A DNA stretch of 64,000 bases from Solwaraspora sp. WMMA2065 (lineage in GTDB: Bacteria > Actinomycetota > Actinomycetes > Mycobacteriales > Micromonosporaceae): assembly GCF_030345075.1 (NCBI RefSeq), contig NZ_CP128361.1, forward strand, positions 5,828,001-5,892,000. Direction: 5' to 3'. Shown piece by piece: positions 25,609-41,500 of this stretch. The position numbers and the translations under genes are program-made. How positions within the stretch are numbered: the stretch's first letter is position 1; each line of letters starts with the position of its first letter. The notes under the pieces were generated by a model. The model saw only the letters and a list, made by a program, of their open reading frames with translations. It ran no database searches and was not told the DNA's origin.

Positions 25609-26628
25609 ATGCAGTACCGCACCCTCGGCCGCACCGGCGTGCAGGCCAGCACCCTCGCCCTCGGCGCGATGAACTTCGGCGCGATCGGCGACACCAGCCA
25701 GGACGAGGCCACCGCCATCGTCGACGCCGCGCTCGACGCCGGGATCAACCTCATCGACACGGCCGACTGGTACAGCCATGGCCAGTCGGAGGAGATTCTC
25801 GGCAAGGCCATCGCCGGCCGCCGCGACGACATCGTGCTCGCCACCAAGGCCAACATGCCGATGAGCGACGAACGCAACCACCAGGGCAGCTCCCGCCGCT
25901 GGCTGGTCACCGCCCTGGACGACAGCCTGCGCCGGCTCGGCGTCGACCACGTCGACCTCTATCAGATCCACCGCTGGGACCCGGCGACCAGCGATGAGGA
26001 GACCCTGTCCGCGCTGACCGATCTGCAACGGGCCGGCAAGATCCGCTACTTCGGCTCGTCGACCTTCCCCGCCTACCGGATCGTCCAGGCCCAGTGGGCC
26101 GCCCGGGAACACCGGACCAGCCGGTACGTGACCGAGCAGCCCGGGTACTCGATCCTGCAACGCGGCATCGAGGCCCACGTCCTGCCGGTGACCCAGGAGT
26201 ACGGCATGGGGGTGCTCGCCTGGAGCCCGCTCGCCTCCGGCTGGCTGTCCGGCGCGATCCGCGCCGACCGGGAGATCAGCACCAGCCGGTCCGGCAAGAT
26301 GCCGCAGCGGTACGACCTGGACATCCCCACCAATCGGGCCAAGCTCGACGCGGTCGAGAAACTGGCCGCCGTCGCTGACGCCGCCGGCCTGACGATGATC
26401 CAACTCGCGCTCGGCTTCGTCACCGCACACCCTGGGGTGACCAGCGCGATCATCGGCCCGCGCACGATCGACCACCTGCATTCGCAGTTGGCTGCCGCAG
26501 ACACCGTGCTGACCGCCGACGTGCTCGACGCCGTCGACGCGATCGTCGCCCCCGGTGTCGACCTGGCTCCGCATGAGAAGCACGACGCCCCGCCCGCTCT
26601 GCTCGACCCGGCGCTCCGCCGCCGCTGA
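25609..26628 (+). CDS. Aldo/keto reductase
   Basis: This 339-residue NADPH-dependent oxidoreductase of the AKR fold has the tetrad residues in context: Asp and Tyr in [13 protein letters not shown], Lys in VLATKANMP and His in YQIHRWDP, plus the cofactor segment [21 protein letters not shown] lies 11 bases before the ATG. It starts an operon running into a decayed LLM oxidoreductase. Substrate unknown; repression by the divergent TetR gene is likely. Confidence 0.93.
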
Positions 26629-26647
26629 CCGCGTACTGGATGGACTG

Positions 26648-27434
26648 ATGCCACCGACACCCCGGCTCAGCTTCGGGATCATGACCGCCCCATCCCAGGT
26701 CGACTACCACGACGTGTCGCGCGTCTGGCGCGACGCGGACTCGATCCCGGCCATCGAACACGCCTGGCTCTACGACCACCTCATGCCGATCTTCGGCGAC
26801 CCGAGCGGGCCGACGTACGAAGGCTGGACCCTGCTCGCCGCGCTTGCCGCGCAGACCCGGCGGCTGCGTCTAGGCCTGTTGGTGACCAGCAACCGCTTCC
26901 GGCCACCGGCGATGCTGGCCAAGATGGCCGCGACCGTCGACATCGTCTCCGGCGGCCGGCTCGACTTCGGCATCGGTGCCGGCTCGCGGCCCGGTCACCC
27001 GCCGGCTGTGGACCGAGGCCGAACCGTTCGACTTCCACGGCACCCACCACCGCCTGGCCGGGGCGTACGGCAGCCCGAAGCCGGTGCAGCGCCCGTACCC
27101 GCCGATCCTGATCGGCGGACGGTCGGCGGCCCTGCTGCGGGTGGTCGCCGCGCACGCCGACCTGTGGAACATCCCCGGCGGTGACATCGCCGACGCGGCC
27201 AGCCGTAGCGCGCTGCTGGACCGCTACTGCGCCGAGATCGGCCGCGACCCGGCGACCATCACCCGCTCCATCCACCTGCCGGTCTCCTACGACCAGCCCG
27301 GCGCCACCCGGGCCGCCGTCAGCGCGGCGGTCGACGCCGGCTTCGGGCACATAGTCCTCGGCCTCTCGACGCCCTACCCACCCGACGTGGCCCGCTGGGT
27401 CGCCGACGAGTTCATCATCAGTACGCCGTCCTGA
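26648..27434 (+). pseudogene. LLM-class flavin-dependent oxidoreductase, internal deletion and frameshift
   Basis: The first frame from ATG 26648 encodes a luciferase-like N terminus ([18 protein letters not shown]...[13 protein letters not shown]...[14 protein letters not shown]). It then runs out of register near 26990. A second frame resumes the family sequence directly at [18 protein letters not shown] and continues through [16 protein letters not shown] to the TGA at 27432-27434. From the family, about 30-40 residues between GIGAGSRP and RRLWTE are missing, and the deletion is not a multiple of three. The flavin barrel cannot form. It would have used FMN or F420. It shares the operon with the intact aldo-keto reductase. 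Confidence 0.8.
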
Positions 27435-27664
27435 GGCTCCAGCCGGTGGCTCGGGCGCGGCGATCACCGAGGCTGTCACCGCTCGGCGGAAGTCGTCAGG
27501 GTTCTCGACCAACGGCAGGTGGCCGGACCCGGCGAGGCTCACGCGCTGACTGTCGGGCAGCGCCTCATGCAGTGAGTCGACGGCCCAGCGGGGGCGAATG
27601 TCCTCGGAGCCGTCGATGATCAGCACTGGCAGGTCGAGCGCACGGCGGGTTCGGGTGGCGGTTC
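27435..27664 (-). pseudogene. Alpha/beta hydrolase C-terminal fragment
   Basis: Reverse-strand reading gives LDLPVLIIDGSEDIRPRWAVDSLHEALP followed by GSGHLPLVENPDDFRRAV, the last strand, acid loop and catalytic-histidine loop (GSGHLP) of a proline-iminopeptidase-like alpha/beta hydrolase. The nucleophile-bearing N-terminal two thirds are absent. Upstream sequence is replaced by transposon-related DNA from about 27665. The frame does not stop near the expected C terminus either, so this is a remnant. Confidence 0.65.
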
Positions 27665-27712
27665 GGGGAGACCTACCGGTGGCGACACCGACAGGGTGCC
27701 CGGACCGACCTC

Positions 27713-28023
27713 ACGACGGCCGCGATCTGGTGGTTGTGGACCGCTGGTTCCCGTCGACCCGACTGTGCTCCGGACTGCGGCGCCCTGGCCGTCCGGATGC
27801 CGTTGGCCGTCCGGTCGTGGACCTGCCGGTGCGGGCAGGCCCACGACCGGGACGTCGACGCGGCCCGCAACATCCTCGCGGAGGGGCTCTCCGTGACTGC
27901 CTGTGGAGGCGGTGTAAGACCTCACCGGGAGTCCTCCTCTCGGACGGGGCGGTCGTCGGCGAAGCAGGAACCCCTGGGGCGACCCAGGGAATCCCTGTTC
28001 CTTCAGGGCGGGGAGGAAGTCAA
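27713..28023 (+). mobile_element. IS200/IS605-family (TnpB-only type) remnant
   Basis: About 95 residues of the TnpB C terminus remain: LVVVDRWFPSTRLCS, then after a one-base frameshift (around 27769-27775) CGALAV, WTCRCGQAHDRDVDAARNILAEGL and TACGGGVRP. These are the zinc ribbon and the RuvC-III Asp (HDRDVDAARN). The N-terminal part with RuvC-I/II and the transposase TnpA are missing. The copy ends with a typical IS605-type right end at about 28023, just before the tartrate dehydrogenase gene end. Confidence 0.78.
27988..28023 (+). ncRNA. Remnant 3' end of TnpB-associated omega RNA
   Basis: The tail GGAATCCCTG...CAGGGCGGGGAGGAAGTCAA resembles the conserved IS605/IS1341 right end, in which a stem (here CCCTG/CAGGG) precedes GGGGAGGAnGTCAA. 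In living elements this is the 3' part of the guide RNA scaffold, and the guide is the flanking DNA. With tnpB broken it should be inactive. The assignment is from remembered family consensus. Confidence 0.5.
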
Positions 28024-28046
28024 GCCGGACCTGGGTGGCCCAGTGG

Positions 28047-29129
28047 TCAATCCGGTAGGTTCTTGATGATGGCTTCGGTGACAGCCTTGGTGCTGGCGCT
28101 GCCGCCGATATCCCGCGTCAGCAGCCCTTGTGCCGTGGTTGCCTCGATCGCGGCGTTTATCTTCCTGGCCTCGTCGGGCAGGCCGAGATGGGTCAGCATC
28201 ATCGCTGCGCTGCCAATGGCGCCGATGGGATTGCAGATTCCCATCCCGGCGATGTCGGGCGCGGACCCGTGAACCGGCTCGAACATGCTCGGGTACCGCC
28301 GTTCCGGATTCAGATTCGCACTCGGGGCGAGGCCGAGGCTACCCGCGAGAGCGCTGCCGAGGTCGGAAAGGATGTCCGCGTTGAGATTGGATGCGACGAC
28401 GACCGAGAGATCCTCCGGGTGTAGGACGAACTTGGCCGCCATCGCGTCCACAAGGACGCTTTCCGTTTCGACGTCCGGATAGTCTGCGGCGACCCGCCGG
28501 AACGTGTCGTCCCAGAGGACCATACCGTACTGCTGGGCGTTACTCTTGGTGACGCTGGCCACCTTCTTGCGGGTCCTGGTCAGAGCGAGGTCGAACGCGA
28601 ACCGCATGATTCGTTCGCAGCCGACCTCGGTGAACAGGGCGGACTGGACGGCAACCTCTCCGCCCGCACCGCGGGCGGAGAGGTTGCGTCCGCCGAGGCC
28701 GGCGTATTCGCCTTCGGTGTTCTCGCGGACGACGACCCAGTCGAGCTCTACGGTGTCAGCCTTCCGTAGTGGGCTGGTGACGCCTGGCAGGAAAGTCACC
28801 GGCCGGACGTTCGCCCAATGGTCGAATCCCTGACAGATGCGCAGGCGAAGACCCCACAGGCTGATGTGGTCAGGCACCGTGGGCCACCCAACGGCACCGA
28901 AATAGATGGCGTCGAAGTCGCGCAACGTGTCCAGACCGTCCTCAGGCATCATGATCCCGTGCTCGGCATAGTAGTCCGAACCCCACGGGAACTCCGCCCA
29001 CTGGAATCCGAAACGACCACCGGAGCGCCCTTCCAGTGCGTCAAGTACGTCCCGTCCAGCGGCGACTACCTCCCGACCGACGCCGTCGGCGGGAATGACG
29101 GCGATACGGAAGTGGTGCTGATTGCTCAT
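28047..29129 (-). CDS. Tartrate dehydrogenase/decarboxylase family enzyme (TtuC-like)
   Basis: This 360-residue beta-decarboxylating dehydrogenase belongs to the isopropylmalate/isocitrate dehydrogenase fold. Landmarks are IAVIPADGVGREVV, RENTEGEYAGLGGR (substrate loop), VTKSNAQQYGMVLWDD (catalytic Lys) and SNLNADILSDLGSALAGSLGLAPSAN with EPVHGSAPDIAG (NAD binding). The RENTEGEYAGLGGR and W-rich N terminus (FPWGSDYYAEHG) fit tartrate dehydrogenase/D-malate dehydrogenase. Such enzymes can yield D-glycerate from meso-tartrate or pyruvate from D-malate. A nearby glycerate kinase favours a glycerate-yielding route. The ATG follows GGAG. A LysR-type box lies 90 bases upstream. Confidence 0.87.
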   Translation of the reverse strand: MSNQHHFRIAVIPADGVGREVVAAGRDVLDALEGRSGGRFGFQWAEFPWGSDYYAEHGIMMPEDGLDTLRDFDAIYFGAVGWPTVPDHISLWGLRLRICQGFDHWANVRPVTFLPGVTSPLRKADTVELDWVVVRENTEGEYAGLGGRNLSARGAGGEVAVQSALFTEVGCERIMRFAFDLALTRTRKKVASVTKSNAQQYGMVLWDDTFRRVAADYPDVETESVLVDAMAAKFVLHPEDLSVVVASNLNADILSDLGSALAGSLGLAPSANLNPERRYPSMFEPVHGSAPDIAGMGICNPIGAIGSAAMMLTHLGLPDEARKINAAIEATTAQGLLTRDIGGSASTKAVTEAIIKNLPD

Positions 29130-29218
29130 GGCAACTCCGGCCTCGTGGTAGATGGTAGGCACAAATCAGTGAACCCGGATGCTCGATAGGCGTCCAACAC
29201 CGCTATCCGATCGGATGC

Positions 29219-29233
29219 ATTGGTCCAGCCTAT
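29219..29233. promoter_or_regulatory. LysR-type box upstream of ttuC-like gene
   Basis: ATTGG-TCCAG-CCTAT differs at one position from the ATAGG-N5-CCTAT dyad found at three other promoters of this cluster. It keeps the T-N11-A spacing and lies about 97 bases upstream of the ATG at 29129. Confidence 0.55.
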
Positions 29234-29246
29234 GATTCCTGCTGCA

Positions 29247-30647
29247 CTACGCCTCGCAGCTGTGGGTGTGCTCGGCCGTCATGCGCTGCGTACCGGCGAA
29301 GGCCTTGACGGTGCGGGGCCGCCCCAACTTGATCCGGTCGAGGGCCTTGATCCTGTCCTTCTTGCTCCGATCGCGCCACGTGTCGTCGTCGGTGTCGAAG
29401 GAGAGCGGCTGCAGGTAGTCCACAGGGTCGATGACCCACCGCACGTGCGGCCGGTCGGCATCCGGCACACCCATGAGGTTCATCTGCTCGAGGTAGCCGG
29501 CGTACACCGCCAGGGAGCAGCCCTCCCGAGTCCGGGTGCCCGACGTCAGGTGGTTCGGCACGTAGATGCGGGGACGGACGATCGACTGGTAGTGGATGAG
29601 GTCGCGCAGACCGTTGTTGGTGTAGTTGGCGGTCGATGCCGTTGCCAGATGCAGGTCGGTCTGGGGCAGCAACGCGAGGCGGCCCCGGATGCGCTCGCCA
29701 TCCTCGGGGGTGCCGGGCCAGCCGTTGCCGATGCCCTCCTTCAGCGCGCCTGCGGTGTTCTGCCACCCGAAGCTGAAGTTGCTGCCGTGCCGCAAGGTGA
29801 TGTGGAAGTAGATACTCACGGTGCCGCCGGAGCCGCCGCCGGTGCGCAGGTTCATCTGCCCGGGCTGCGGGTTGGACCCCGGGGTCAGCGAAGTCCCCGA
29901 CGGAAAGAGGGCCGAGTCGCGCGGGTCGACGAGAATCTCGGTACGCGGCGGCGGGTACTCCGGGTCCTGCGGCACCGCGACCGAGTGCAGGTGCCGGAAG
30001 GCCACCACCTGAGCGAAGGGTTCGAGTACGTCGAGCCGGACCATCTCGGTACCGGGAACGGAGTCGGCGCTGGTGACCGGCACGGTCCGCAGGACGGCGT
30101 CAGAGGGGATCCGGGTCTGCGGATCGGTGTTGACCAGCGGGTCAGCCTTCAGCCGAGCGAAGTCGGCGGCCAGCACGGCGCAGGTCTCCTCCGAGGCGTA
30201 GATGGTTGCACCGGTCATGGCCGCGATGTAGGCCGCGTTGTCGGCATGGTCGCCGTGCCCGTGGCCGAGCAGAACAGCGTCAGGCCGGGCATCGACGAGG
30301 TCGGCGATCACCAGCGGAGTACGGCCACGCTCCACCTCCAGCCGGCTGATGAACGTGTCGAGGTACAGCAGGCGGCCGCCGACCGCGACGGCGAACGACG
30401 AGTTGGACAGCCACGATGCGACCACGCGTTCCTCGGGCAGGGCGCCGGTCTGAGGGTTGACGTTCTCTGGGCCGAAGAGCCGCAGCCGGGCAGCGATGCC
30501 GGCGTCCGAGAGGCGCCTACCGCCGCCCTTGGACGGGCTCCAGCCGGTGCCGAGCTTGGTCGCCAGTGCCGGTTCAGTGACGATTGCCGAGCCGACGGCG
30601 GCGCCCGACAGCGCGGTGGCCGAGGCGAGGAACAACCTTCGTTTCAT
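29247..30647 (-). CDS. Exported metallo-beta-lactamase-fold hydrolase
   Basis: This 466-residue protein starts MKRRLFLASATALSGAAVGSA, a Tat-like or Sec signal with a twin arginine, and cleavage near EPALAT. The MBL motif LLGHGHGDHADN supplies H129, H131, D133 and H134 of the dinuclear zinc site. Further family histidines follow in FRHLHSVAVP and NHLTSG. It is much longer than simple lactonases and lacks a clear beta-lactamase signature, so the substrate (lactone, ester or other) is open. AGAGGAA precedes the ATG. A LysR-type box (30783-30797) is 136 bases upstream, linking it to the neighbouring catabolic genes. Confidence 0.8.
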   Translation of the reverse strand: MKRRLFLASATALSGAAVGSAIVTEPALATKLGTGWSPSKGGGRRLSDAGIAARLRLFGPENVNPQTGALPEERVVASWLSNSSFAVAVGGRLLYLDTFISRLEVERGRTPLVIADLVDARPDAVLLGHGHGDHADNAAYIAAMTGATIYASEETCAVLAADFARLKADPLVNTDPQTRIPSDAVLRTVPVTSADSVPGTEMVRLDVLEPFAQVVAFRHLHSVAVPQDPEYPPPRTEILVDPRDSALFPSGTSLTPGSNPQPGQMNLRTGGGSGGTVSIYFHITLRHGSNFSFGWQNTAGALKEGIGNGWPGTPEDGERIRGRLALLPQTDLHLATASTANYTNNGLRDLIHYQSIVRPRIYVPNHLTSGTRTREGCSLAVYAGYLEQMNLMGVPDADRPHVRWVIDPVDYLQPLSFDTDDDTWRDRSKKDRIKALDRIKLGRPRTVKAFAGTQRMTAEHTHSCEA

Positions 30648-30782
30648 CGGATTCCTCTCATTGCCTGGTGCAGGCATGGAGTAGGGACGGGGTGCGGGGA
30701 CGGGGTGCGGGTCGGAGCTGAGATCGACTCACTCAACCAATGTGATCGTCGCCACGTCCAAGACCGGTGTCCTCTCGACGCG

Positions 30783-30797
30783 ATAGCGCGGCCCTAT
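30783..30797. promoter_or_regulatory. LysR-type box upstream of MBL-fold hydrolase gene
   Basis: ATAGC-GCGGC-CCTAT is the cluster's dyad with one mismatch in the left arm, about 140 bases upstream of the ATG at 30647 and just after the 3' end of the glycerate kinase gene (30839). Confidence 0.55.
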
Positions 30798-30838
30798 GGG
30801 TCGTCGCGACGTGCGTCGAGCCGGCACCGGCTTCAACG

Positions 30839-31972
30839 TCAACCGGTGAGATGGTCCAGGGCTATCCGTCGTCCGATATCGGTGAGCAGCTCAGCGGCAT
30901 TCGACTGGCATCGGTCGAGGTCGGGGTCGATACTGGTGAGCGGGTAGGCACCGGCAAAGCCGGCGGCAGCGAGGTCGGCCGCATCGAGCGTCGACTGGCC
31001 GGCCACCGCGACGACCGGCACACCTGCGGCGTGCGCCGCTGCCGCAACCCCCACCGGAGTCTTTCCGGCCAGGCTCTGCTGATCGAGGCGCCCCTCTCCG
31101 GTGACCACCAGACGGGCGCTGGTCAGGGCCGTGGCGAAGTCGGTCAGGTCCAGGAAGACCTCGATACCCCGGCGAATGGTCGCACCGAGTGCCAGGGCGG
31201 CGAATCCGACGCCGCCGGCGGCCCCAGCCCCGGGCGCTGCGGCCAGCCCCGCACCGGCTGCCTGTCCGACTGCTGTGGCGAACCGGCTCAGAGCCTGCTC
31301 AAGCAGGTTGACCTGCGCGGGGTCGGCACCCTTCTGCGGTCCGTACGTGGCGGCCGCGCCTCGGCTACCAAGCAGGGGATTGTCAACGTCGGCGGCCACC
31401 GTCACCGAGACGCCACGCAACAGGTCGTGCACGGGATTCAGGTCGACGGAGGCTACCTCGGCGAGCCGGCGACCGCCGCGCGGAATGTTCTGCTGATCGC
31501 GGTCGAGCACCCGGGCGCCCAGCGCCTGCAGCAGGCCGGCTCCACCATCGGTGCTGGCGCTGCCACCCAGGCCGATGACGAGGTGACGGCAGCCGCTGCG
31601 GACCGCTGCGACGATGACCTGCCCGAGTCCGTACGACGAGGCGTCCAAGGGGGCGGGAACGCCGTCGGGTAGCTGGCTGAGCCCGCACGCGTCGGCGAGC
31701 TCGACGACCGCCACCTCGCCGCGGACCGCGTAACTCGTTCGTACGGTCTGGCCGGTCGGTCCGTCGACCTCCACCGGAACCAGGTCGAAGCCGACATCTG
31801 ACAGGAGCGCGACGGTGCCGTCGCCGCCATCGGCCATCGGGCGGCAGTCGACCTGGACGCCGGGTCGGACGGCCCGTAGCCCGGCACGCAGCGCCAGAGC
31901 GACGTTCGTCGCGTCGAGTGACCCCTTGAACTTGTCCGGTGCCACGAGACACGTCGTCCTGGTGGTGGGCAT
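30839..31972 (-). CDS. Glycerate kinase (GlxK/GarK type)
   Basis: This 377-residue kinase phosphorylates D-glycerate, normally giving 2-phosphoglycerate in this family. Signatures are VAPDKFKGSLDA near the N terminus, PMADGGDGT, IGLGGSASTDGGAGLLQALG, VTVAADVDNPLLG, GEGRLDQQSLAGKTPVGVA and a C-terminal AGAYPLTS. GGGAGG lies before the ATG (complement 31970-31972). It is monocistronic on the reverse strand with a perfect 8-bp-arm LysR dyad about 110 bases upstream. Together with the TtuC-like enzyme it would feed hydroxy-acid carbon into glycolysis. Confidence 0.93.
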   Translation of the reverse strand: MPTTRTTCLVAPDKFKGSLDATNVALALRAGLRAVRPGVQVDCRPMADGGDGTVALLSDVGFDLVPVEVDGPTGQTVRTSYAVRGEVAVVELADACGLSQLPDGVPAPLDASSYGLGQVIVAAVRSGCRHLVIGLGGSASTDGGAGLLQALGARVLDRDQQNIPRGGRRLAEVASVDLNPVHDLLRGVSVTVAADVDNPLLGSRGAAATYGPQKGADPAQVNLLEQALSRFATAVGQAAGAGLAAAPGAGAAGGVGFAALALGATIRRGIEVFLDLTDFATALTSARLVVTGEGRLDQQSLAGKTPVGVAAAAHAAGVPVVAVAGQSTLDAADLAAAGFAGAYPLTSIDPDLDRCQSNAAELLTDIGRRIALDHLTG

Positions 31973-32075
31973 GTCGGCCTCCCGCTGCTGGTGGACAGGG
32001 CTGCCGGGTGGACCGGAAGCCTCACCAACCTTGGGCGGGCCCGGGTGCGGCGTCCAACACGCACGATCTACCCCT

Positions 32076-32096
32076 CTCATAGGTGCGGCCTATGAG
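32076..32096. promoter_or_regulatory. LysR-type operator upstream of glycerate kinase gene (perfect dyad)
   Basis: CTCATAGG-N5-CCTATGAG, perfect over eight bases per arm, contains the core ATAGG-TGCGG-CCTAT (32079-32093) with T-N11-A spacing. It lies 104-124 bases upstream of the ATG at 31972, in the region between the divergently organised kinase and the lysR terminator. Confidence 0.78.
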
Positions 32097-32193
32097 ATCG
32101 GCTGGATGATCCGGCACCTGGCGTGCGGGCATGGCGGCCGGGTCGGGCACCGCGCTGTTCAGCGCGTCGGTGCGGGCGTCGACGGGCCGCACA

Positions 32194-32219
32194 CGGCGGC
32201 CTGGTCGGTCAGGCCGCCG
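32194..32219 (-). terminator. Terminator of lysR gene
   Basis: CGGCGGCCTG (32194-32203) pairs perfectly with CAGGCCGCCG (32210-32219) across a six-base loop. The hairpin overlaps the stop codon of the LysR gene (end 32209). There is no U-tract, which is usual in high-GC actinobacteria. Confidence 0.55.
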
Positions 32220-33114
32220 GCTGGTCGAGCCGCTCGTCGCGGTACCTCCGGGCGATGTCGATGAATGCCCGTGCGGCGGGCGTCAGCTGGGTGCGGCGAC
32301 TGACCAGGACGATCCGCAGGTACGCCGTGGGGCGGATCGGCAGCACGTCCGCCCCGGCCCTGATCGCGAGATCCTTCCACGCGGCGGGCAGGATCGCATC
32401 GGCCACCCCGGCGAGGACGAGGGGAAGGATGGACGTCCGGTGGGCGACCTCGGCGACGAGCCGGGCCTGACTTCCCTGCGCCAGGATGTGATCGACGAGC
32501 TGTCGCATGAGGGAACCGGGCTGGGAGGCGATGAGCCGGTGTCCGTCGAAATCGTCGGCGGTGACGTGGTCGCGGCCATGGAAAGGGCCACCGGGAGCGG
32601 TGAACAGCATCAGTGGCTGGTTCTCCAGGGGCACGACGTCGAGCTCGGCGACCCGGACGATGTCGGGCGCGCCGAGCAGGCCGATCTCGACGGCACCGGT
32701 ACGCACCGCGTCGATCACCTCGTCCGGTACGAAGGCGGCGTTGACGCTGACAGTGACGTCGGGATGAGCGGCGGCGAACCGCTGCATGATCGGTGCCAGG
32801 GGCTCGATGCCGGCGGACGGCATCGAGGTGACCTCAACCCGGCCTCGGGCCACCCCCTTGATGGCGTCGATGGTGGCCTGTGCGGTCGCCAGGTCGCGGA
32901 TGACCTGCCGGGCCGGACCGATCAGCTGCTTGCCGGCGTCACTGAGCACCACGCCGCGTCCGACCCGGTGGAACAGCGCGACGCCCAGCTCGCGCTCCAG
33001 TCCGGCGATGGCCTGTGACAGTGACGGTTGCGCGATGTAGAGCTTCTCGGCTGCCTTGCCGAAGCCTTCAGCGTCGACGACTGCGAGGAAGTATCGGAGC
33101 TGGCGGGCGTCCAT
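32209..33114 (-). CDS. LysR-family transcriptional regulator
   Basis: This 301-residue regulator has the N-terminal winged helix MDARQLRYFLAVVDAEGFGKAAEKLYIAQPSLSQAIAGLERELG and a C-terminal periplasmic-binding-like effector domain (about 92-295). It lies between the glycerate kinase and the ABC importer genes and is the only regulator in the 28-37 kb stretch. ATAGG-CGCTG-GCTAC (33308-33322), a degraded copy of the cluster's box, lies about 200 bases upstream and may serve autoregulation. The ligand is likely a hydroxy-carboxylate, by inference from the neighbours. Confidence 0.92.
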   Translation of the reverse strand: MDARQLRYFLAVVDAEGFGKAAEKLYIAQPSLSQAIAGLERELGVALFHRVGRGVVLSDAGKQLIGPARQVIRDLATAQATIDAIKGVARGRVEVTSMPSAGIEPLAPIMQRFAAAHPDVTVSVNAAFVPDEVIDAVRTGAVEIGLLGAPDIVRVAELDVVPLENQPLMLFTAPGGPFHGRDHVTADDFDGHRLIASQPGSLMRQLVDHILAQGSQARLVAEVAHRTSILPLVLAGVADAILPAAWKDLAIRAGADVLPIRPTAYLRIVLVSRRTQLTPAARAFIDIARRYRDERLDQPAA

Positions 33115-33835
33115 CGCGCGTCAGCACCGGCTGCCGGTACGGGTCTGGGGCAGCTGAGGGTGCCTCCCGGTCGGTGCCGCCCTTCTCCGGCTGCGATCTG
33201 TCATGCGCGCGCACCCTTCGCTGATTCTCATGATCAGATCGGCCTGACCTGGCGATATGCAACCAGGTGGCGGCCGATAGGTCCAGACCCCGTTCGGGAT
33301 TCGTTAGATAGGCGCTGGCTACGAGTGGGAAGTGTCGACCGAGGGTAGCGGGCGACGGCCGATCGAACGCCGCAGCCACGTCCGCGCCGCCACGAGCCGT
33401 ACGGTTTCGGCGGGAACCGGCAGGTGGCCGCGCCGAAACTGCCGTTCCGTCAATGGCTGCGGCCCACCTGCGCTTCTGTCTGCTATAGACGCTTTGGGCG
33501 TTTGATCCGCAGTTTCGCGCGCGCGATCGCTGAGGGCTCCTCGATAGGTCGTGCCTATGAATGAGATCGATGCAGCGTCTTGGACGTCACTATGTCGGCC
33601 GAGTTAACTGTTGTGCTGCAGGACACAGTCAGCTCTGGAGGAATCACGTGCCTAGATCCCCACCACCGGCCGACCAGGAGAAACAGGGCGGTGCGTCCGC
33701 GCCCGTCCGAGAACTGGATCGCCGCCGACCCCCGACTGGCGTGTCAGCGCGCCGACGAACGGTCCCGACCGTTCCCACCACCACGGCCACCAACCAGAGC
33801 CAGTCGCCTAGCCGACGAGTCCAAGGGAGTCCTGT
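33115..33835. other. Divergent control region between lysR and the ABC importer operon
   Basis: About 720 bases. It contains the clear LysR box at 33544-33558, a weak one at 33308-33322, a run of alternating CG (about 33517-33526) and an AT-richer stretch near 33480-33500. A 110-codon frame starts at GTG 33648 after GGAGGAATCAC and overlaps the importer ATPase start in another frame. It has Pro/Arg/Thr composition without recognisable domain, so it is either a leader peptide or chance. No other gene is seen. Confidence 0.5.
33544..33558. promoter_or_regulatory. LysR-type operator upstream of ABC importer operon
   Basis: ATAGG-TCGTG-CCTAT has both five-base arms identical to those of the glycerate kinase operator. 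It lies 278 bases upstream of the ATPase ATG (33836) and 90 bases upstream of the possible leader GTG at 33648. Confidence 0.7.
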
Positions 33836-34687
33836 ATGGTCCATCCGTCCCCGCTGCGCGCCGACCCGGAACGAGCCGTCCCGCAGCCCGACGAACGGCC
33901 CGACACGCTGCTCAGCGTGTCCCACGCCTCGATCGGCTACTGGGTCAACGGCACGTTCGCCCGAGCTGTGGCAGACGTGAGCTTCGACGTCACCGCTGGC
34001 GAGACGATCATGTTGATCGGCCCGTCCGGATGCGGAAAGTCGACCCTTCTCAAGACCATCGCGGGGTTCCTCGAACTCGCTGACGGCACGATCACCGTGG
34101 CCGGTCGACGCACACTCGCCCCCGGGCCGGACCGGGCGGTCGTCTTCCAGGAGTTCGACCAGCTGTTCCCCTGGCGTGACGTACTCGACAACGTCGCATA
34201 CCCGTTGCGTCGCAACGGTCGTAAGAGGTCCGACGCGGACCAGCAGGCGCGCCGCTACCTCGAGATGATGGGGCTGAGTCGAGCCCTCGACCGCCACCCC
34301 CACCAGCTCTCGGGCGGGATGAAGCAGCGGGTGGCGATCGCGCGCGCCTTCGCGCTGGAGCCGGTCATGCTGCTGATGGACGAGCCGTTCGGGGCTCTGG
34401 ACGCGCTCACCCGGGCCCGCCTGCAGGCCGAGCTCAACGCCATCGCGAAACGAACCGGGGTCACCATCCTGTTCGTCACCCACAGCATCGAGGAGGCAAT
34501 TGTCCTCGGTGACCGGGTCGTCGTTCTGACCGACCCGCCTTCGGTGGTCCGTGAGACCGTCCAGATCACCGACGAAGCCAAGGTGGTGGGTTCAGAGGAG
34601 TACCGCAGCGTACGGACACATCTGGGCAGCCTGCTGCACCGGGACGGGAAGGGGGCTGACGAGGATGTCGCTGAGTTCACCGACTGA
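33836..34687 (+). CDS. ABC transporter ATP-binding protein, NitT/TauT type
   Basis: This 283-residue ATPase has Walker A GPSGCGKST (62-70), the Q loop FQEFDQLFPW (105-113, the nitrate/taurine-family version), signature LSGGMKQR (158-165), Walker B MLLMDEP (178-184) and H loop VTHSIEEA. It energises uptake with the downstream permease and binding protein. GGGAG precedes the ATG. Its 3' end overlaps the permease start by 23 bases. Confidence 0.95.
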   Translation: MVHPSPLRADPERAVPQPDERPDTLLSVSHASIGYWVNGTFARAVADVSFDVTAGETIMLIGPSGCGKSTLLKTIAGFLELADGTITVAGRRTLAPGPDRAVVFQEFDQLFPWRDVLDNVAYPLRRNGRKRSDADQQARRYLEMMGLSRALDRHPHQLSGGMKQRVAIARAFALEPVMLLMDEPFGALDALTRARLQAELNAIAKRTGVTILFVTHSIEEAIVLGDRVVVLTDPPSVVRETVQITDEAKVVGSEEYRSVRTHLGSLLHRDGKGADEDVAEFTD

Positions 34688-35549
34688 ACAATCGACCATC
34701 ACCCGTACCGAGGGGGACGTCCCGGCCCCGCCGTCGGCCGACGCCGCCCCGCCGCGCAGTGTCAGGGACTGGCGGTGGGGGGCGATGCCGGTGTGGCTGC
34801 GCCGGGTTCTCGTCGTCGTCCTGCTGCTGACCGGGTGGCAGCTCTACGTCACGATATCGGGCGTCAACCCCCTGCTGTTCTCCTCACCCGCAGACGTGGG
34901 TCGGGCCCTGGTCGCGGGTTTCCAGAACGGTGAACTGCTGCGATCGACCGGCACCACCATGCGGGTCCTGTTGCTCGGCATGCTGTTCGGCAGCCTCATC
35001 GCCGTCGTGCTGACCACACTCGCGGTGTGGACGCGCTTCGGTGAGGACGTACTCGTCGTCTTCTCCTCGATGCTGAACCCACTGCCGTCGATCGCCGTGC
35101 TGCCGCTGGCGATCCTGTGGTTCGGGCTCAGTGAGACGGCTCTGGTGTTCGTGGTCGCCAACGCGGTGATCTGGCCGATTGCAATCAATGTCAACACCGG
35201 CTTCCGGACGGCGAACCGGACGATTATAGCGGTCGGCCGCAACATCGGGCTCAAGCGCTGGCGCATGATCTCCGAGGTGCTCTTCCCGGCCGCCCTGCCA
35301 CACACGATCTCGGGAGTCAAGACTGCCTGGGCCTTCGGCTGGCGCACCATCGTCGCCTCCGAACTCGTGTTCGGCGTCGCAGGAGGTGGGGGTGGCCTCG
35401 GCTACTTCATCAACAACAGCCGCTACTACCTTGACATCCCCGACGTCTTCGCCGGCCTGGTGACGATCGCGGTCATCGGTCTACTGATCGACATGGTCTT
35501 CATCCTGATCGAGCGGCGCACTGTCGTTCGATGGGGAATGAAGACATAG
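34665..35549 (+). CDS. ABC transporter permease, NitT/TauT type
   Basis: This 294-residue protein has a cytoplasmic N terminus and about six membrane helices, with the EAA loop region (AVGRNIGLKRWRMISEVLFPAALPHTISGVKTAW) of the SsuC/TauC family. It probably works as a homodimer. ATG 34665 lies inside the ATPase gene and follows GAGGATG context; overlapping starts are normal in this operon type. The binding protein gene follows after 107 bases. Confidence 0.93.
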   Translation: MSLSSPTEQSTITRTEGDVPAPPSADAAPPRSVRDWRWGAMPVWLRRVLVVVLLLTGWQLYVTISGVNPLLFSSPADVGRALVAGFQNGELLRSTGTTMRVLLLGMLFGSLIAVVLTTLAVWTRFGEDVLVVFSSMLNPLPSIAVLPLAILWFGLSETALVFVVANAVIWPIAINVNTGFRTANRTIIAVGRNIGLKRWRMISEVLFPAALPHTISGVKTAWAFGWRTIVASELVFGVAGGGGGLGYFINNSRYYLDIPDVFAGLVTIAVIGLLIDMVFILIERRTVVRWGMKT

Positions 35550-35656
35550 CCGGACCGCCGACCTGTCGGAATCCGGTTCCCGCCACCACCGTAGGTGGAA
35601 CGCACCGTCCGCCCGACCCTCCGTCCGATATCAGCAGACAAGGTGGGGATCACCCT

Positions 35657-36673
35657 ATGATTTCAGCTAGTTCTCGAGCCGCTCGGCGATCCCGATATGT
35701 TGCCGCGACCGCTCTGGCCGCACTTTTGTCGACCTCGGCCGCATGCGGCTCCAACGAGGCCGACGTGCAGGCCAGCGACGGTATGCCGGCCAAGGTGACG
35801 ATTGCGTACCAGCCGGGCCTGTCATACGCTCCGCTCATTCTACTCAAGCAGAACGGCACCCTGGAGAAGGAGTTTCCCAACACGACCTTCGAGTGGACGG
35901 AGCTATCGTCGAGCGCGGCAGTGCAGGACGGCATGATTTCAGGCGACATCCAGGTCGGCGCCGGAAGCGCGGCACAGATGATTCTGGCCCGGGACAAGGG
36001 GGTCGACTGGCGGTACCTGGCCTCGCTCAACGACGCGGAACTTTGGCTGATGGCCAAGGACGAACGGCTCACGTCGCTCAGTGATTTCACGTCCTCCGAC
36101 AAGATCGCGATGCCCTCGCTGACGTCGATTCAGGCGTTGGTCCTTCGAAAGGGAGCCCAGGACCAGCTCGGCGACGCCGAAGCGCTCGACACGAACATCG
36201 TGCCCATGTCCCATCCGGATGGCTTGCAGAACCTGGTGAGCGGACAGATCGCCGCGCACCTGACCTCACCGCCGTTCCAGTTCGACGAGCAGGATCAGGG
36301 CATGCGTGTCGTGCTGAAGAGCAGCGACCTCTTCGGGCCGATCATGTTCAACGGTGTATTCATGATGAACGAGTACTACGAGCAGAACACCGAGTTCTCG
36401 ACCCGGCTCTACTCGATCCTGGAAGAGCAGATCGCCGCGCTCGCGGACGACCCGGCGGCGGCGGCGGCTGAGCTCTCGGCGAACTCCGGTGGCAAGACCA
36501 CACCTGAGAGCTTCGAGAAGTACCTCACCAACCCGGCGATCACCTACACCACCGAGCCGCACGGTCTTCAGGACATCGCCGGTTTCATGGAAGAGATCGG
36601 AATGATCTCGGAGACACCGGACAGCTGGAAGGACCTCACCTTCCCCACCGTCCACGAGAGCGCCGGCAGCTGA
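35657..36673 (+). CDS. ABC transporter substrate-binding lipoprotein, NitT/TauT/SsuA type
   Basis: This 338-residue protein has a twin-basic N terminus and lipobox LSTSAAC with lipidation at Cys30. The mature part has the SsuA-like start KVTIAYQPGLSYAPLILLKQNGTLEKEF and GDIQVGAGSAAQMILARDKG. The ligand is unknown: family members bind sulfonates, nitrate, pyrimidine precursors or aromatic acids. Because the operon shares a LysR box with tartrate- and glycerate-processing genes, a hydroxy-carboxylate or related compound is a reasonable guess. A strong terminator follows. Confidence 0.9.
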   Translation: MISASSRAARRSRYVAATALAALLSTSAACGSNEADVQASDGMPAKVTIAYQPGLSYAPLILLKQNGTLEKEFPNTTFEWTELSSSAAVQDGMISGDIQVGAGSAAQMILARDKGVDWRYLASLNDAELWLMAKDERLTSLSDFTSSDKIAMPSLTSIQALVLRKGAQDQLGDAEALDTNIVPMSHPDGLQNLVSGQIAAHLTSPPFQFDEQDQGMRVVLKSSDLFGPIMFNGVFMMNEYYEQNTEFSTRLYSILEEQIAALADDPAAAAAELSANSGGKTTPESFEKYLTNPAITYTTEPHGLQDIAGFMEEIGMISETPDSWKDLTFPTVHESAGS

Positions 36674-36697
36674 CGCCACAACCCACCCGCCATACGG

Positions 36698-36737
36698 GTC
36701 AGACGAGCCGTCGGCGACCGCCGACGGCTCGTCTGAC
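36698..36737. terminator. Long perfect hairpin terminator after importer operon
   Basis: GTCAGACGAGCCGTCGGCG (36698-36716) is exactly complementary to 36719-36737, with two bases between. This 19-bp arm I-shaped hairpin without a U-tract lies 25 bases after the binding-protein stop and before the convergent sulfotransferase gene, so it may stop transcription both ways. Confidence 0.85.
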
Positions 36738-36851
36738 GCACTGGCCACCCAGAGGACCGATACGACTGACCCGGCCTGATCCGGCTGCGGAATCAGCTCG
36801 GCCTGTCCGGTGATCGGGCCGCGCGCCCGACCAACTCGACCGCGCACCCGA

Positions 36852-37766
36852 TCAGACGGTGATCGGGCCGCGGTGCAGCCAGTCGACCAGCTCGGGTACG
36901 GCGAGTTTGGCGACCTGCTCCTCGTAGCGCCGCAGGTCGCCGTCGTCGAGCAGGTCACGCCACTGGCCGGTGGCGCCCCGGTTGAAGAACTGCTTCGGGT
37001 CCCGCCACATCGCCAGGACGGGGGCGAATTCCTTGGCGCGGTTGCGCATGGAATCGAAGGTGGCCGCCTGCACCAGCTCCGGCCAGCGCTGTTCGGGCAC
37101 CTCGATGTCGAGCTGTTCGGCGATCGCCCGCATCTGGCCCTCAAGGTCGGACTTCAGCTCGTCGTAGTGCAGGAGCAGGACGTTTGACCGGTCACGCTCC
37201 GCCCAGAAACCTGACATGTGGTGCAGCATCGACGGCAGGCCGATCTGCACGTCGGGGTGTTCCATCCAGGCCCAGAACCGGTCGTACTCGGATTCCAGCT
37301 GCGGTGGCGCGTCGTCGGTGAGCTCGCCGGTCAGATCGTCGTTGCCGACCGCCGCGTCGCGTAGCTTCAGGACCACGTCGTAGTCGGTGTTCTGGAAGTG
37401 TGCGTCCCAGGACAAAGCGACGTCGCGCGGGTCTCGGCCGACCGCGATGTAGGTGACCCCGTCGTGGATCGGCAGGCCGTCGAACGGGGTGTGGGTCTTG
37501 ATGATGCGTCGGTGCTGCTGCGCCTCGTAGAACGCGAACACGTCGGCCTGGCTGCGCGTCTTCATGTCGGGCCAGAGGGTGATGTCGTCCAGCGGGCGGG
37601 GTAGCTCCGGCGTCTGGAAGATCAGCAGAGCGCAGATCGTCTGGGTCCATGTCGTGCCGCATTTAGCGGGTGTCGAGATCACGATGTCGCCGTCGCGGAA
37701 GGGAAATCCCCCCCAACGGGCGCTGTCCATGATCGCATTGTGGTACCGAACCGTGGGTTGGCGCAC
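36852..37766 (-). CDS. Sulfotransferase family protein (PAPS-dependent)
   Basis: This 304-residue cytosolic sulfotransferase shows the 5'-phosphosulfate loop STPAKCGTTWTQTI (31-44), the 3'-phosphate segment VGRDPRDVALSW (109-120) and the C-terminal FFNRGATGQWRDLL, which matches the RKGxxGDWK-like motif. It transfers sulfate from PAPS to a hydroxyl or amine. The GTG at 37766 follows GGAGGG. No PAPS-synthesis or natural-product genes are adjacent. Function in this genome is unknown; lipid or small-molecule sulfation is possible. Confidence 0.9.
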   Translation of the reverse strand: MRQPTVRYHNAIMDSARWGGFPFRDGDIVISTPAKCGTTWTQTICALLIFQTPELPRPLDDITLWPDMKTRSQADVFAFYEAQQHRRIIKTHTPFDGLPIHDGVTYIAVGRDPRDVALSWDAHFQNTDYDVVLKLRDAAVGNDDLTGELTDDAPPQLESEYDRFWAWMEHPDVQIGLPSMLHHMSGFWAERDRSNVLLLHYDELKSDLEGQMRAIAEQLDIEVPEQRWPELVQAATFDSMRNRAKEFAPVLAMWRDPKQFFNRGATGQWRDLLDDGDLRRYEEQVAKLAVPELVDWLHRGPITV

Positions 37767-37866
37767 CGGCCCTCCAGTCTGAATTGGTCGAGTCGTCCAA
37801 ATCAGACCGTAGACTCCACAGTGTAGCTTTGTCCAGAGTTGATCTAAGAACCCGGCACCTGACCAG

Positions 37867-37908
37867 ACAGCGACGGGGCCAGCCGACCTCGGCTGGCCCC
37901 GTCGCTGT
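37867..37908. terminator. Long perfect hairpin terminator
   Basis: ACAGCGACGGGGCCAGCCGA (37867-37886) is exactly complementary to 37889-37908 with two bases between. It lies 22 bases downstream (reverse strand) of the small exported protein gene ending at 37931, so it ends the operon that starts at 44426. Confidence 0.85.
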
Positions 37909-37930
37909 CCGTGCCCTGGCCCCGTCGTGA

Positions 37931-38464
37931 TCAGGGCTGTCTGGACCGTGGCCGGCGCGCGGCCACCGCCAAGGCGGCCAACGCCAGCGCGGCGAGGCCG
38001 ATCGGCCATGCCCAACGCCACCAACCGGCTCCGGCCGTACCGCCAGATTCGTCCTCGGCCGCTGCGGCGGCCAGATCGGCGACCGGCGGCGCCTGACCCT
38101 CCACCGCCTGTACATCGACCGTCGCCGTGCTGTCGTACGGCGCCGGAGCGCTCACCGTCACCTGCCAGTCACCCGGGCTGAGCACCGGGCCACTGGCATA
38201 GAATCCCTGCCCTTCACCGGCCGGTTCGAGCTGCAACGGGCCGACCGACCGCCCCCCGTCAGCGGTGGCGGTCAGCACCAGCCGGACCGGAAGGTCGAGC
38301 CGGTGCCCATCGTCATGGAAGGCCTGCACGGTCACCCCGGTGGCACCGTCGCCGGCCACCTCCAGATCGAGTTTGCCGTTGTGCGCCTGCGCGGGACCGG
38401 CCGCCGGCAGCACCGCCAGCAACAGGCCGAACAGAACGGCGGCCGATCCACGCGTACGACGCAT
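37931..38464 (-). CDS. Exported protein with Ig-like domain and C-terminal membrane anchor
   Basis: This 177-residue protein has a signal peptide (MRRTRGSAAVLFGLLLAVLPAAGPAQA, cleavage about 27), a beta-rich domain starting HNGKLDLEVAGDGATGVTVQAFHDDGHRLD that resembles CopC/YtkA-like Ig folds, a linker, and one membrane helix (about 150-168, WAWPIGLAALALAALAVAA) with a basic tail. The N-terminal His after cleavage could bind metal, but this is speculation. The gene lies 94 bases after the giant ThuA protein gene on the same strand and is probably in its operon. Confidence 0.72.
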   Translation of the reverse strand: MRRTRGSAAVLFGLLLAVLPAAGPAQAHNGKLDLEVAGDGATGVTVQAFHDDGHRLDLPVRLVLTATADGGRSVGPLQLEPAGEGQGFYASGPVLSPGDWQVTVSAPAPYDSTATVDVQAVEGQAPPVADLAAAAAEDESGGTAGAGWWRWAWPIGLAALALAALAVAARRPRSRQP

Positions 38465-38558
38465 GGTGTCTTCCTTCCTGTCTCGTCGACGGGTCGGTGA
38501 CCTGTCGATAGGACGGTGGCCCCGCCCGGCACCGAGGACCGGGCGGGGCCACCGCGGA

Positions 38559-41500
38559 TCAGAGTTGCTGGTCGGGGTCGATCCGGGTGGGGTCCTCCGC
38601 CAGCCGACCGGCACCGGTGACCGGCTTTCCGCCGTTCGCCTTCACCCCGGCCGCGCTCGCCGTGCCACCGAGCCGTTCGATCATGGCGTCGGCGTCACGG
38701 ATCAGGGTGTCCCGCACGTCGGCGTCGGTGACCAGATCCGGGTCGGCGGCGAGGGCCTTGAACGCGGTCAGCTGCTGGATCGCCCGCTTGTCCTTGCCGG
38801 CCGCCTCCGACAGCCGGACCGCGTCCAGCTTGTTGGACAGCTTGCGGTCCGCCTTCTTGGACAACCGTCCGGTCGACTTGAACCTGTCGATCAGGTTCTG
38901 CATGTCCCGGAACGAGGTGGTGACGAAGAACCGAACCGTCGAGGTGGTGTCGTTGCCCGCCTTGTCGGTCGCGGTCACGGTTAGCTCGTGCAGGCCGAGC
39001 GGCAGGTCGTACATCACCTGGAGGGTGTCGTTCGCGTACGGCTGCCCGTCCAGCGTGCCGACGACGGTGTCGATGCCGGAGGTCGGGTCGACCGCCTGCC
39101 ACGACACCCGTACGTCCTGGCTGTCGCCGTACAGCTGGCCGTCGGCCAGCCCGGAGATCAGCAGGGTCGGCTTGCTGCCGTCGATCTTCACCACGGCCGA
39201 CTTCAGCGCCTCGACGTTGCCGGCGAGGTCGGTGGCCCGGTAGAGCAGCTCGTGGTCACCGTCGCCGGTCACCTCGACCGGCTCGTCGTACGGCGTCCAG
39301 TCACCGCCGTCGAGCGACCACTCCAGCAGCTCGACCCCGGAACCGTCGTCGGTCGAGGAGAGCACCACCGGGATGGTGCCGTCGTGCCAGCCGTTGTCGT
39401 TCGCCGGGGCGAACTCCGCCGAGCTGACCGGCGCCGTGGCGTCGATCTGGAAGGTGACGGACCGGGTCTGCTCCACGTTGCCGGCGGCGTCGGTGGACCG
39501 GAACCGCAGCTCGTGGCTGCCGTCCCCACTCACCGCTACCGGCTCGGTGTACGCCGTCCACCCGGTCTCGTCGTCGAGCGAGTACTCGGTACCCGCCACC
39601 CCGCTGCCACCGTCTTCGTCGGTGGCGGTCAGGGTGACCGCGACCGGTCCGGGGTACCAGCCCTCGACCGGTCCAGCCGGCTCGCCGGTCCCGCTGACCT
39701 CGGCCTCGGTCACCGGCGCCGTGGTGTCCTCCTCCGAAACCTCCGTGGTCAACCGGAAGTAGTCGAACGACACGGTCTTCGACTCCGTCTGGTTGGCGCC
39801 GAGGCTGAACAGCCCGACCATCGGGTTAGCCCCGACAGCCGCGTTGGTGAGCGACTCGAACTGCGTCCAGTCGGTGCCGTCGGCCGAGTACGCGGCGGTG
39901 TAGGTGTCACCGACGCGGGCCAGCCGCAGGTGCCACACCGCCGAGGTCAGCTCGCTGACCTGCGGCTGCGGGTTCTGCACCGCCGCACCGATCTCGCTGC
40001 GGTACTCGATGCGCCGACTGACCGGGCTGCCGACGGTGTTGTCGGCGATGAAGTCCAACTTGAGATAGTTGTCGTCATCGGCGTACACCAGCAGCCCGGC
40101 CTGCTGGTACTGCTCGTCCAGCAGGCTGCCGTCGACCTTCGTCTGCACGGTCCAGTCGCCGTCCGGCGCGGTCTGCAGGATGAAGTTCGTCGGCCCGGAG
40201 TTGCCCGCACCGTAGATGTCACCGTTCGACACGTCGATGTGCAGCGACCCGTCGGCGACCCGGTAGGCCGCCGCGTCCTCCCGGACGATGGCGTCCCAGC
40301 GGCACGCGTCCAGCGCGCTCCCGTCGAACTCGTCGGACGGCTCGACCGGACCGGCCGGCTCATCCGGCGTCACCTGGAACCAGTCGAAGGCGGCGTCGAC
40401 CACCGGAGCCTCGGTCCCACCGTTGAGCGCGAACACGCCGATCTGCGGGTTCCCGATGCCAGTCAGTGCCGCCGACCGGCCGACCGGGGCGAAGGTCTGT
40501 CCGTCGGCCGACATGGCCGCCGTCAGGTTCGTCCCGTCGCTGGTCACCCGCAGGTAGATGGTGTCACCTGCGGGCGCGTCGGTGGCGTCGGCACCCTCGT
40601 TGCGCGGGGTGCCGCCGGTCTCCCGGATGAACTCCACCCGGCGGCTGCCGCTGTACAGCAGGTCCAGCTTGGCGTAGTTGTCGTCGTCGCCGTAGACCAG
40701 CAGACCAGCCTGCTGGTAATTGGCGGTAACCGGCAACGTCACCTTGGTGGTGGCCTGCCAGGCGCCGTCCGGCGCGGGCTGCAGGACCAGGTTGGTGGCG
40801 TCGTTGCGGCCGCCGTAGAGGTCACCGACGCCGGTCGGCAGCAGGAGCGTGCCGTCGGCCACCGAGTACACCTGGCTCTCCCGGACCACCGTCCACCGGT
40901 CGCGGTCCAGCCCGTCGCCGAGGAAGTCGTCCGACCGTGCTCCGAAGCAGGACGTGTTCGGTGCCTCGACCCGCACCGACACGTACGCCGATGCCGTCGC
41001 GCCCCGGGCGTCGGTCACCACCAGGGTGGCGACGAAGGTTCCCGGTGCGGTGTACGTGTGGCTGGCGTCCAGGGTGTCGGCGGTGCCGCCGTCACCGAAG
41101 TCCCAGGCGTACGTCAACGGGGTGTCGCCCTCGGCATCGGTGGCCGTGCCGTCGAACGCCACGGTGAGCGGCGCGGTGCCGGACGTCGGCGTCGCGGTGA
41201 CGCTGACCTGCGGCGGCGCGTTCTCGGTGACGCCTCGGCCGAGGAAGTCCATCCAGTTGACGTTGAACAGCGAGTTCGCGCCACCGCCCGGGTCCCGGGC
41301 GACGAAGTACAGCACCGCCGCGTCGGCGCCGCCGGTGACCGGCGCGGTCACGTCGGTCCAGGTCTGCCAGCCGCCGGTACCCGCGACGTCAGCGGAGGCG
41401 ACCACCGGACCGTCGACGGCGTCGGCGCGGACCTCGATCCGGCCGCCGGCCGTCGCCGATGCGACCCGGAACCCGATCGAGTCGACGTTGGTCAGGTTGG

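Follow-up and report, generated by a model that had tools for sequence, protein, structure and literature searches.

A conserved LysR-ttuC regulon with a composite promoter signal is predicted in Solwaraspora sp. WMMA2065, in a variant with an ABC importer, a glycerate kinase and a probably exported metallo-hydrolase

Do similar boxes in four intergenic regions around a lone LysR-type regulator gene mark a single regulon, and which compound would its products handle? This question is raised by a gene cluster of Solwaraspora sp. WMMA2065 (positions 28,047 to 36,673 of a 64,000-nucleotide (nt) stretch, contig NZ_CP128361.1, positions 5,828,001 to 5,892,000, hereafter the window), which encodes a ttuC-like tartrate dehydrogenase/decarboxylase, a metallo-beta-lactamase-like (MBL) hydrolase, a glycerate kinase, the LysR-type regulator and an ATP-binding cassette (ABC) importer. 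Judged from sequence comparison, the cluster is predicted to represent a conserved LysR-ttuC regulon, present here as a variant that comprises a glycerate kinase, an importer of the SsuABC-like type and a metallo-hydrolase that is probably exported. The cluster probably serves the breakdown of tartrate, or of an acid closely resembling it, as an accessory module under the control of one LysR activator.

An earlier note on this DNA had reported a common dyad in four intergenic regions, and all four sites were recovered at the positions given there (Table 1), each displaying the T-N11-A dyad by which LysR-type recognition sites are identified. The dyad upstream of the glycerate kinase gene is indeed perfect, although its arms were read as 9 bp in the current study rather than the 8 bp described previously. 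A -35-like hexamer, TTGGAC, had been overlooked and is located exactly 21 nt 3′ of each of the four boxes on the coding strand of the respective gene. Box and hexamer define a 42-bp composite motif, ATAGG-N5-CCNAT-N21-TTGGAC, for which the reversed motif served as control, while a -10-like hexamer (T-N-N-A-N-T) can be read by eye 18–19 nt past TTGGAC for ttuC, the MBL gene and the importer.

With up to two mismatches the bare box was matched six times in the window against 3.79 ± 1.97 matches expected, a number that was reached by 15 of 100 shuffles; this test is not above chance and was replaced as evidence by genome-wide and composite tests. The 6.74-Mb genome contains two exact bare boxes, both of which are within the cluster, and ten sites with at most one mismatch, four of which are within the cluster (reversed control, 22). 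The composite motif, again with at most one mismatch, occurs four times in the genome as compared to zero occurrences of the control; a scan for randomly scattered boxes, which had been set beforehand as a check, thus found the composite sites confined to the cluster. Relaxing the threshold to three mismatches yields eight sites (control, ten), five of them in the cluster, the fifth being a copy that faces lysR itself and that, as a lone site at this threshold, is weak evidence; this copy is nearer to the consensus in the related loci L049 and L050. From these positions, all five transcription units seem to be equipped with a separate copy of the promoter layout, the weaker one being at lysR.

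Searches with the LysR protein returned matches in six of 61 relatives, two of seven genus genomes and 28 of 354 family genomes, while a search with the LysR alignment returned matches in 19 of 394 class genomes (own genome included throughout). Wide stretches were taken for 20 of the 30 non-window family matches and for 20 of the 24 non-window class matches, resulting in 43 wide loci when the window and two loci reached through TtuC similarity are included; in these, a composite site was accepted with at most 2/16 mismatches and was considered to precede a gene when located within 350 nt upstream. The ttuC gene is present in 38 of the 43 loci and is preceded by a composite site in 35 of those 38. 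Over the 729,869 bases of the wide loci 77 composite sites were found versus none for the reversed control, and the spacing is rigid, as TTGGAC comes 21 nt after a box with at most one mismatch in all of 60 cases from 42 loci (offsets 0–54 examined). The loci are not independent: among 71 sites just 62 are distinct, and L048 and the window are almost the same sequence. All four composite hits of genome G006 are located in its cluster copy, and the reversed control produced 39 hits over the 354 family genomes (approximately 0.1 per genome). The proposal of one LysR regulon is upheld by the confinement of the composite to the cluster in the own genome and by its rigid spacing alongside LysR-ttuC in many actinobacterial genomes, and the proposal also survived the check for conservation in relatives.

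Some loci depart from the common arrangement. In L051 (8405–10408), unlike the usual order, lysR follows ttuC after approximately 15 nt, both genes forming a run downstream of one composite site. Exact composite sites are also found near lysR in L152 (8662), L154 (8660) and L157 (8677), where the genes to which they point may be further regulon members.

The earlier assignments of the two central enzymes were confirmed. The TtuC protein scores 519.8 bits with TIGR02089, above the equivalog cut-off of 470.4, a cut-off that was passed by all seven TtuC proteins tested (that of the window and six homologues from other loci), and its closest solved relative is the tartrate dehydrogenase/decarboxylase 3flk (best PDB match, E 1.8e-105). 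The glycerate kinase matches PF02595 (410.4 bits) and TIGR00045 (374.5 bits; cut-off 168.45). As had been noted, a single LysR gene is located amid the boxes, and its product reaches the cut-off of none among the 25 NCBIfam models listed. The substrate-binding protein of the importer scores 76.4 bits with SsuA_fam, under the cut-off of 163.5, and among the NCBIfam models listed no defined-ligand model of SsuABC, TauABC or nitrate importers reaches its cut-off. Several listed open reading frames start too early, and likely starts of ttuC and of the MBL, glycerate kinase, permease and binding protein genes (Table 1) were assigned by eye on the basis of promoter positions and ribosome sites, with frames checked.

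Table 1. Genes, boxes and promoter copies of the cluster (positions in the window)
Feature	Coordinates	Strand	Details
ttuC-like tartrate dehydrogenase/decarboxylase	28047..29129	-	360 aa from likely ATG 29129; beta-decarboxylating dehydrogenase family
Probably exported MBL hydrolase	29247..30647	-	466 aa
Glycerate kinase (PF02595)	30839..31972	-	377 aa from likely ATG 31972
LysR-type regulator	32209..33114	-	301 aa; PF00126 and PF03466
ABC importer ATPase, SsuB/TauB/NrtD-like	33836..34687	+	PF00005; best NCBIfam models below cut-offs
ABC importer permease, SsuC-like	34665..35549	+	294 aa from likely ATG 34665; PF00528; NCBIfam below cut-offs
ABC importer substrate-binding protein, SsuA/NMT1-like	35657..36673	+	PF13379
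Box ATTGGTCCAGCCTAT	29219-29233		Intergenic, upstream of ttuC; motif scan
Box ATAGCGCGGCCCTAT	30783-30797		Intergenic, upstream of MBL gene; motif scan
Box ATAGGTGCGGCCTAT	32079-32093		0 mismatches; intergenic, upstream of glycerate kinase; motif scan
Box ATAGGTCGTGCCTAT	33544-33558		0 mismatches; intergenic, upstream of ABC importer; motif scan
ttuC promoter	29192..29233	-	ATAGG-CTGGA-CCAAT, 21 nt, TTGGAC, 18 nt, TTCACT; conserved in L048-L050
MBL gene promoter	30756..30797	-	ATAGG-GCCGC-GCTAT, 21 nt, TTGGAC, 19 nt, TTGAGT; conserved in L048-L050
Glycerate kinase promoter	32052..32093	-	ATAGG-CCGCA-CCTAT, 21 nt, TTGGAC; 0 mismatches; conserved in L048-L050
lysR-facing weaker copy	33281..33322	-	GTAGC-CAGCG-CCTAT, 21 nt, CTGGAC; 3 mismatches
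ABC importer promoter	33544..33585	+	ATAGG-TCGTG-CCTAT, 21 nt, TTGGAC, 18 nt, TTAACT; 0 mismatches

TtuC-type enzymes convert meso-tartrate to D-glycerate and D-malate to pyruvate. In the proposed pathway the ABC importer would take up the acid, TtuC would decarboxylate it oxidatively (meso-tartrate to D-glycerate) and the glycerate kinase would feed the glycerate into glycolysis, while the apparently Tat-exported metallo-hydrolase would probably free the importable acid from an ester or lactone outside the cell, this being the least certain step. A tartrate-like substrate is plausible, and D-tartrate is used by E. coli and Pseudomonas via oxaloacetate or glycerate according to an excerpt of PMC7970118.

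The position of the boxes also bears on the direction of control. In eight loci (L059, L061, L063–L065, L148, L150 and L153) the ATG of ttuC is located 30–32 nt past the -35 hexamer and no ribosome site was seen by eye, an arrangement that fits leaderless starts; transcription would then begin at the ATG, thereby placing the centre of the dyad at approximately -66 relative to these inferred, unmapped starts. LysR recognition sites are usually centred near -65 and activation sites near -35. Between box and -35 hexamer the columns ATCG (offsets 22–25 from the box start) and GTC (33–35) are also conserved, less so than the box, and fit a candidate activation site, while a T..A.T hexamer (offsets 61–66) recurs across loci approximately 19 nt past TTGGAC. 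Given the dyad centre and the activation-site-like element, activation is the likeliest predicted action of the LysR protein. A LysR tetramer would, upon binding a dicarboxylate inducer, move to the activation site that overlies the -35 hexamer and recruit RNA polymerase at these promoters, consistent with the high-affinity recognition site (T-N11-A), the low-affinity activation site and the inducer-dependent shift described for LysR regulators in the part of PMC11739112 drawn upon here.

The genes behind this promoter differ among the 43 wide loci. DASS symporters are found in 18 (>40% identity; Pfam checks on five) and DctA-type symporters in seven (one checked by Pfam); a composite site stands before the DASS gene in 16 of these 18 loci and before the DctA gene in three of these seven. 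The importer permease, the binding protein and the MBL hydrolase were matched only in the window, L048, L049 and L050, which are also the only loci with a site directly before the glycerate kinase gene; the site is within 350 nt of the importer in two of these four clusters, while in L049 and L050 its distance to the ATPase gene is approximately 360 nt. The same four are the only ones among the 354 family genomes to contain the MBL gene. A glycerate kinase gene in the same stretch as ttuC was also found in L058, L059, L105, L106, L139, L140 and L145.

The MBL hydrolase begins with MKRRLFLAS, a twin-arginine-like signal as read by eye, and its HxHxDH motif and further histidines (H129, H131, D133, H134, H219, H221 and H366) are invariant in eight of eight aligned sequences; export and action outside the cell are plausible. 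An AlphaFold2 model made from just two sequences has a mean pLDDT of 31.8, and comparison with PDB sequences gave brief and weak similarity in the surroundings of the metal motif. Homologues are present in nine of 72,556 plasmid records (Rhizobium, one; Agrobacterium, one; Bradyrhizobium, seven), and on rhizobial plasmids they occur at 51–59% identity near tartrate dehydrogenase genes. In Rhizobium SSA_523 (L102) the gene is flanked by those of a MOFRL glycerate kinase and of a TctA-like permease (by eye), approximately 2.1 kb after a tartrate dehydrogenase gene; in A. tumefaciens Q15/94 (L103; from Clematis) it is located 2.2 kb after such a gene, in a Tct gene run, and the locus comprises two tartrate dehydrogenases, a glycerate kinase and a Tct transporter beside the MBL gene. 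An Amidohydro_2 protein (L103, 10226–11080) follows the MBL gene there and may be a partner hydrolase. In the one Bradyrhizobium record opened, of seven with near-equal score, a cluster of tartrate dehydrogenase, glycerate kinase and LysR genes is approximately 16 kb away from the homologue. The occurrence of MBL homologues beside rhizobial tartrate genes provides independent support for the tartrate link. In the class sample matches were found in four of 394 genomes, the own genome included; two of these are 33–36% identical, with a ttuC-like gene (42%) approximately 9 kb away in G733. The linkage of this hydrolase family to tartrate genes, as judged from gene neighbourhoods, appears repeated, not universal. 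That an exported MBL activity frees importable tartrate is a possibility to which we give appreciably less than even weight. Slightly more tentative still is the wider notion that importer and exported metallo-hydrolase form a new entry route, in which the hydrolase would cut bound tartrate outside the cell and the MBL family would mark bound-tartrate catabolism in actinobacteria and rhizobia under unrelated regulators.

The earlier note knew of no described system with such a combination, a claim that does not stand in that form, as LysR, tartrate dehydrogenase and glycerate kinase occur together in the TAR regions of A. vitis and on a Paenarthrobacter plasmid; LysR-TtuC-glycerate kinase modules are thus already known. 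The TAR regions are depicted with a LysR gene (ttuA), ttuC and a plasmid location in the part of PMC9219206 consulted. The Agrobacterium/Allorhizobium vitis ttu (TAR) system resembles the window in clustering the genes of a LysR regulator, TtuC (58–59% identity) and a glycerate kinase (by annotation), and it is plasmid-borne and accessory. In contrast, its LysR protein is only 24% identical over 261 columns (that of L107, cut at the locus end), the L107 glycerate kinase is without significant similarity to the PF02595 kinase of the window (E 0.54), MFS and Tct transporters and a pyruvate kinase are present (gene table of one plasmid), and neither a composite site nor an MBL match was found in L107. 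Given the divergent LysR and the dissimilar kinase, the window would work like a ttu module without being a member of that family, and by these comparisons it appears to be assembled from partly different parts. Also related are actinobacterial loci of the LysR-ttuC-DASS or LysR-ttuC-DctA-glycerate kinase kind, which have DASS and DctA symporters instead of the ABC importer. The closest named relative is the version with DctA on plasmid pCZY of Paenarthrobacter ureafaciens (L105), which encodes a LysR of 54%, a TtuC of 78% and a glycerate kinase of 44% identity and carries two exact composite sites, but which differs in having a pyruvate kinase, and no MBL match was found in its stretch. The loci of Rhizobium SSA_523 and A. 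tumefaciens Q15/94 have in common with the window an MBL homologue (59% identity) as well as tartrate dehydrogenase and glycerate kinase, whereas their transporter is of the Tct type (annotated in L103, by eye in L102), a GntR-type regulator is nearby in L103, the kinase of L102 is of the MOFRL type, and no LysR match or composite site was found in either. Within the searches made, what looks new is the promoter code, together with the exchange of the importer and the presence of both an ABC importer and an MBL hydrolase; in the literature, most of its subscription part being outside the scope, no paper was recognised that joins tartrate dehydrogenase with the box, with an ABC importer or with such a hydrolase.

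A number of observations weigh against a single, tartrate-directed LysR regulon. The pairing of ttuC with a preceding site is missing in eight of the 43 wide loci: ttuC has no site before it in L062 (where the site precedes a DASS gene and ttuC follows), L152 and L154, and ttuC itself is lacking in L067, L147 (LysR near the contig end), L156, L157 and L158, though composite sites are present in L156 and L157. Neither was ttuC seen in fourteen further LysR matches (34–43%; nine of the ten remaining family matches, four class matches and one from the relatives), for which only short flanks were available. A clear -10 hexamer was not seen by eye in the glycerate kinase and lysR promoters, and genomes G260 and G312 each contain one composite hit elsewhere in addition to four in the cluster. 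In L070 and L071 (box at 1501), perfect composite sites also lie close to LysR genes that differ from the one studied here; the layout is therefore common to other LysR regulators, a further group of which apparently works with this promoter geometry, and the layout is diagnostic only together with gene context. These sites, and the presence of at least one composite match (at most one mismatch) in 65 of the 354 family genomes, many of them away from window-type LysR genes, would be expected if the boxes were a general actinobacterial promoter or LysR motif instead of a specific regulon signal; this is very improbable in view of the confinement of all four own-genome sites to the cluster, the clean reversed control in the wide loci, and L067 and L158, whose LysR proteins (at most 40% identical) are accompanied by neither ttuC nor a site.

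The substrate and the role of the hydrolase invite further alternatives. The importer family is best known for sulfonates, taurine and nitrate, and its ligand is not readable from sequence. The enzyme is named tartrate dehydrogenase/decarboxylase/D-malate dehydrogenase under database entry K07246 in the portion of PMC8307300 used here, indicating that TtuC-type enzymes also act on D-malate, and a carnitine locus of A. baumannii is drawn with LysR and a predicted tartrate dehydrogenase in the available part of PMC6562126; tartrate is therefore not proven. The module could accordingly serve D-malate or another 2-hydroxydicarboxylate, TtuC yielding pyruvate and the kinase serving another source of glycerate, and no same-family glycerate kinase was found in the fetched stretch of 27 of the 38 wide ttuC loci. 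Such a role is nonetheless unlikely, as conversion of D-malate to pyruvate requires no glycerate kinase, while the kinase here carries its own promoter copy and recurs near ttuC in the seven other wide loci outside the clade named above, and MBL homologues accompany tartrate dehydrogenase and glycerate kinase on the two rhizobial plasmids. More open to doubt is the hydrolase, whose PF12706 score of 27.2 bits is barely at the cut-off of 27. It may have no part in tartrate metabolism and act on an unrelated compound, as a passenger of the island that shares its promoter: a 52% homologue in G487 (L111) adjoins a TRAP transporter with no TtuC match within 19 kb (two ttuC-like genes are located elsewhere in that genome), the one Bradyrhizobium homologue opened is inside a type II secretion locus, and neither the model nor the PDB comparison gave the protein a structure or an assigned activity. 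This passenger role is possible yet doubtful, given that the regulon promoter is found upstream of the MBL gene in four of four clusters and that close linkage to tartrate dehydrogenase recurs on two plasmids of rhizobia, where the transporters are different ones and a relative of the window LysR was not detected.

Three neighbouring features were also noted. The importer leader (33618–33835) is long, approximately 220 nt from the inferred start, with its last 100 nt or so well conserved in L049 and L050; a riboswitch was considered and rejected, as there was no Rfam match above the gathering score across 26000–40000. A sulfotransferase gene (PF00685; 36852–38024) flanks the importer and is present in L048, while no match was found in L049 or L050, and it is therefore probably outside the module. 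Downstream of ttuC, at 27650–28030, the sequence resembles, by eye, the C-terminal part of a transposon-associated (TnpB-like) protein in decay, followed by a right end, the overlapping open reading frame having no Pfam match; a similar stretch is found in L048 (13069–13476).

The preferred reading of the cluster, a LysR-activated module for the use of tartrate or of an acid much like it, has consequences beyond this strain. It provides a sharp and testable promoter code, ATAGG-N5-CCTAT, 21 nt, TTGGAC, for a tartrate-type regulon of actinobacteria, by means of which unknown neighbour genes can be assigned to the pathway, and it portrays one regulator that keeps its promoter while unrelated transporters (DASS, DctA, ABC) are swapped. 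In addition, a metallo-hydrolase family that is uncharacterised and probably exported becomes linked with tartrate genes in two phyla; if bound tartrate is indeed its target, this might for example be a plant hydroxycinnamoyl-tartrate or a tartrate lactone.

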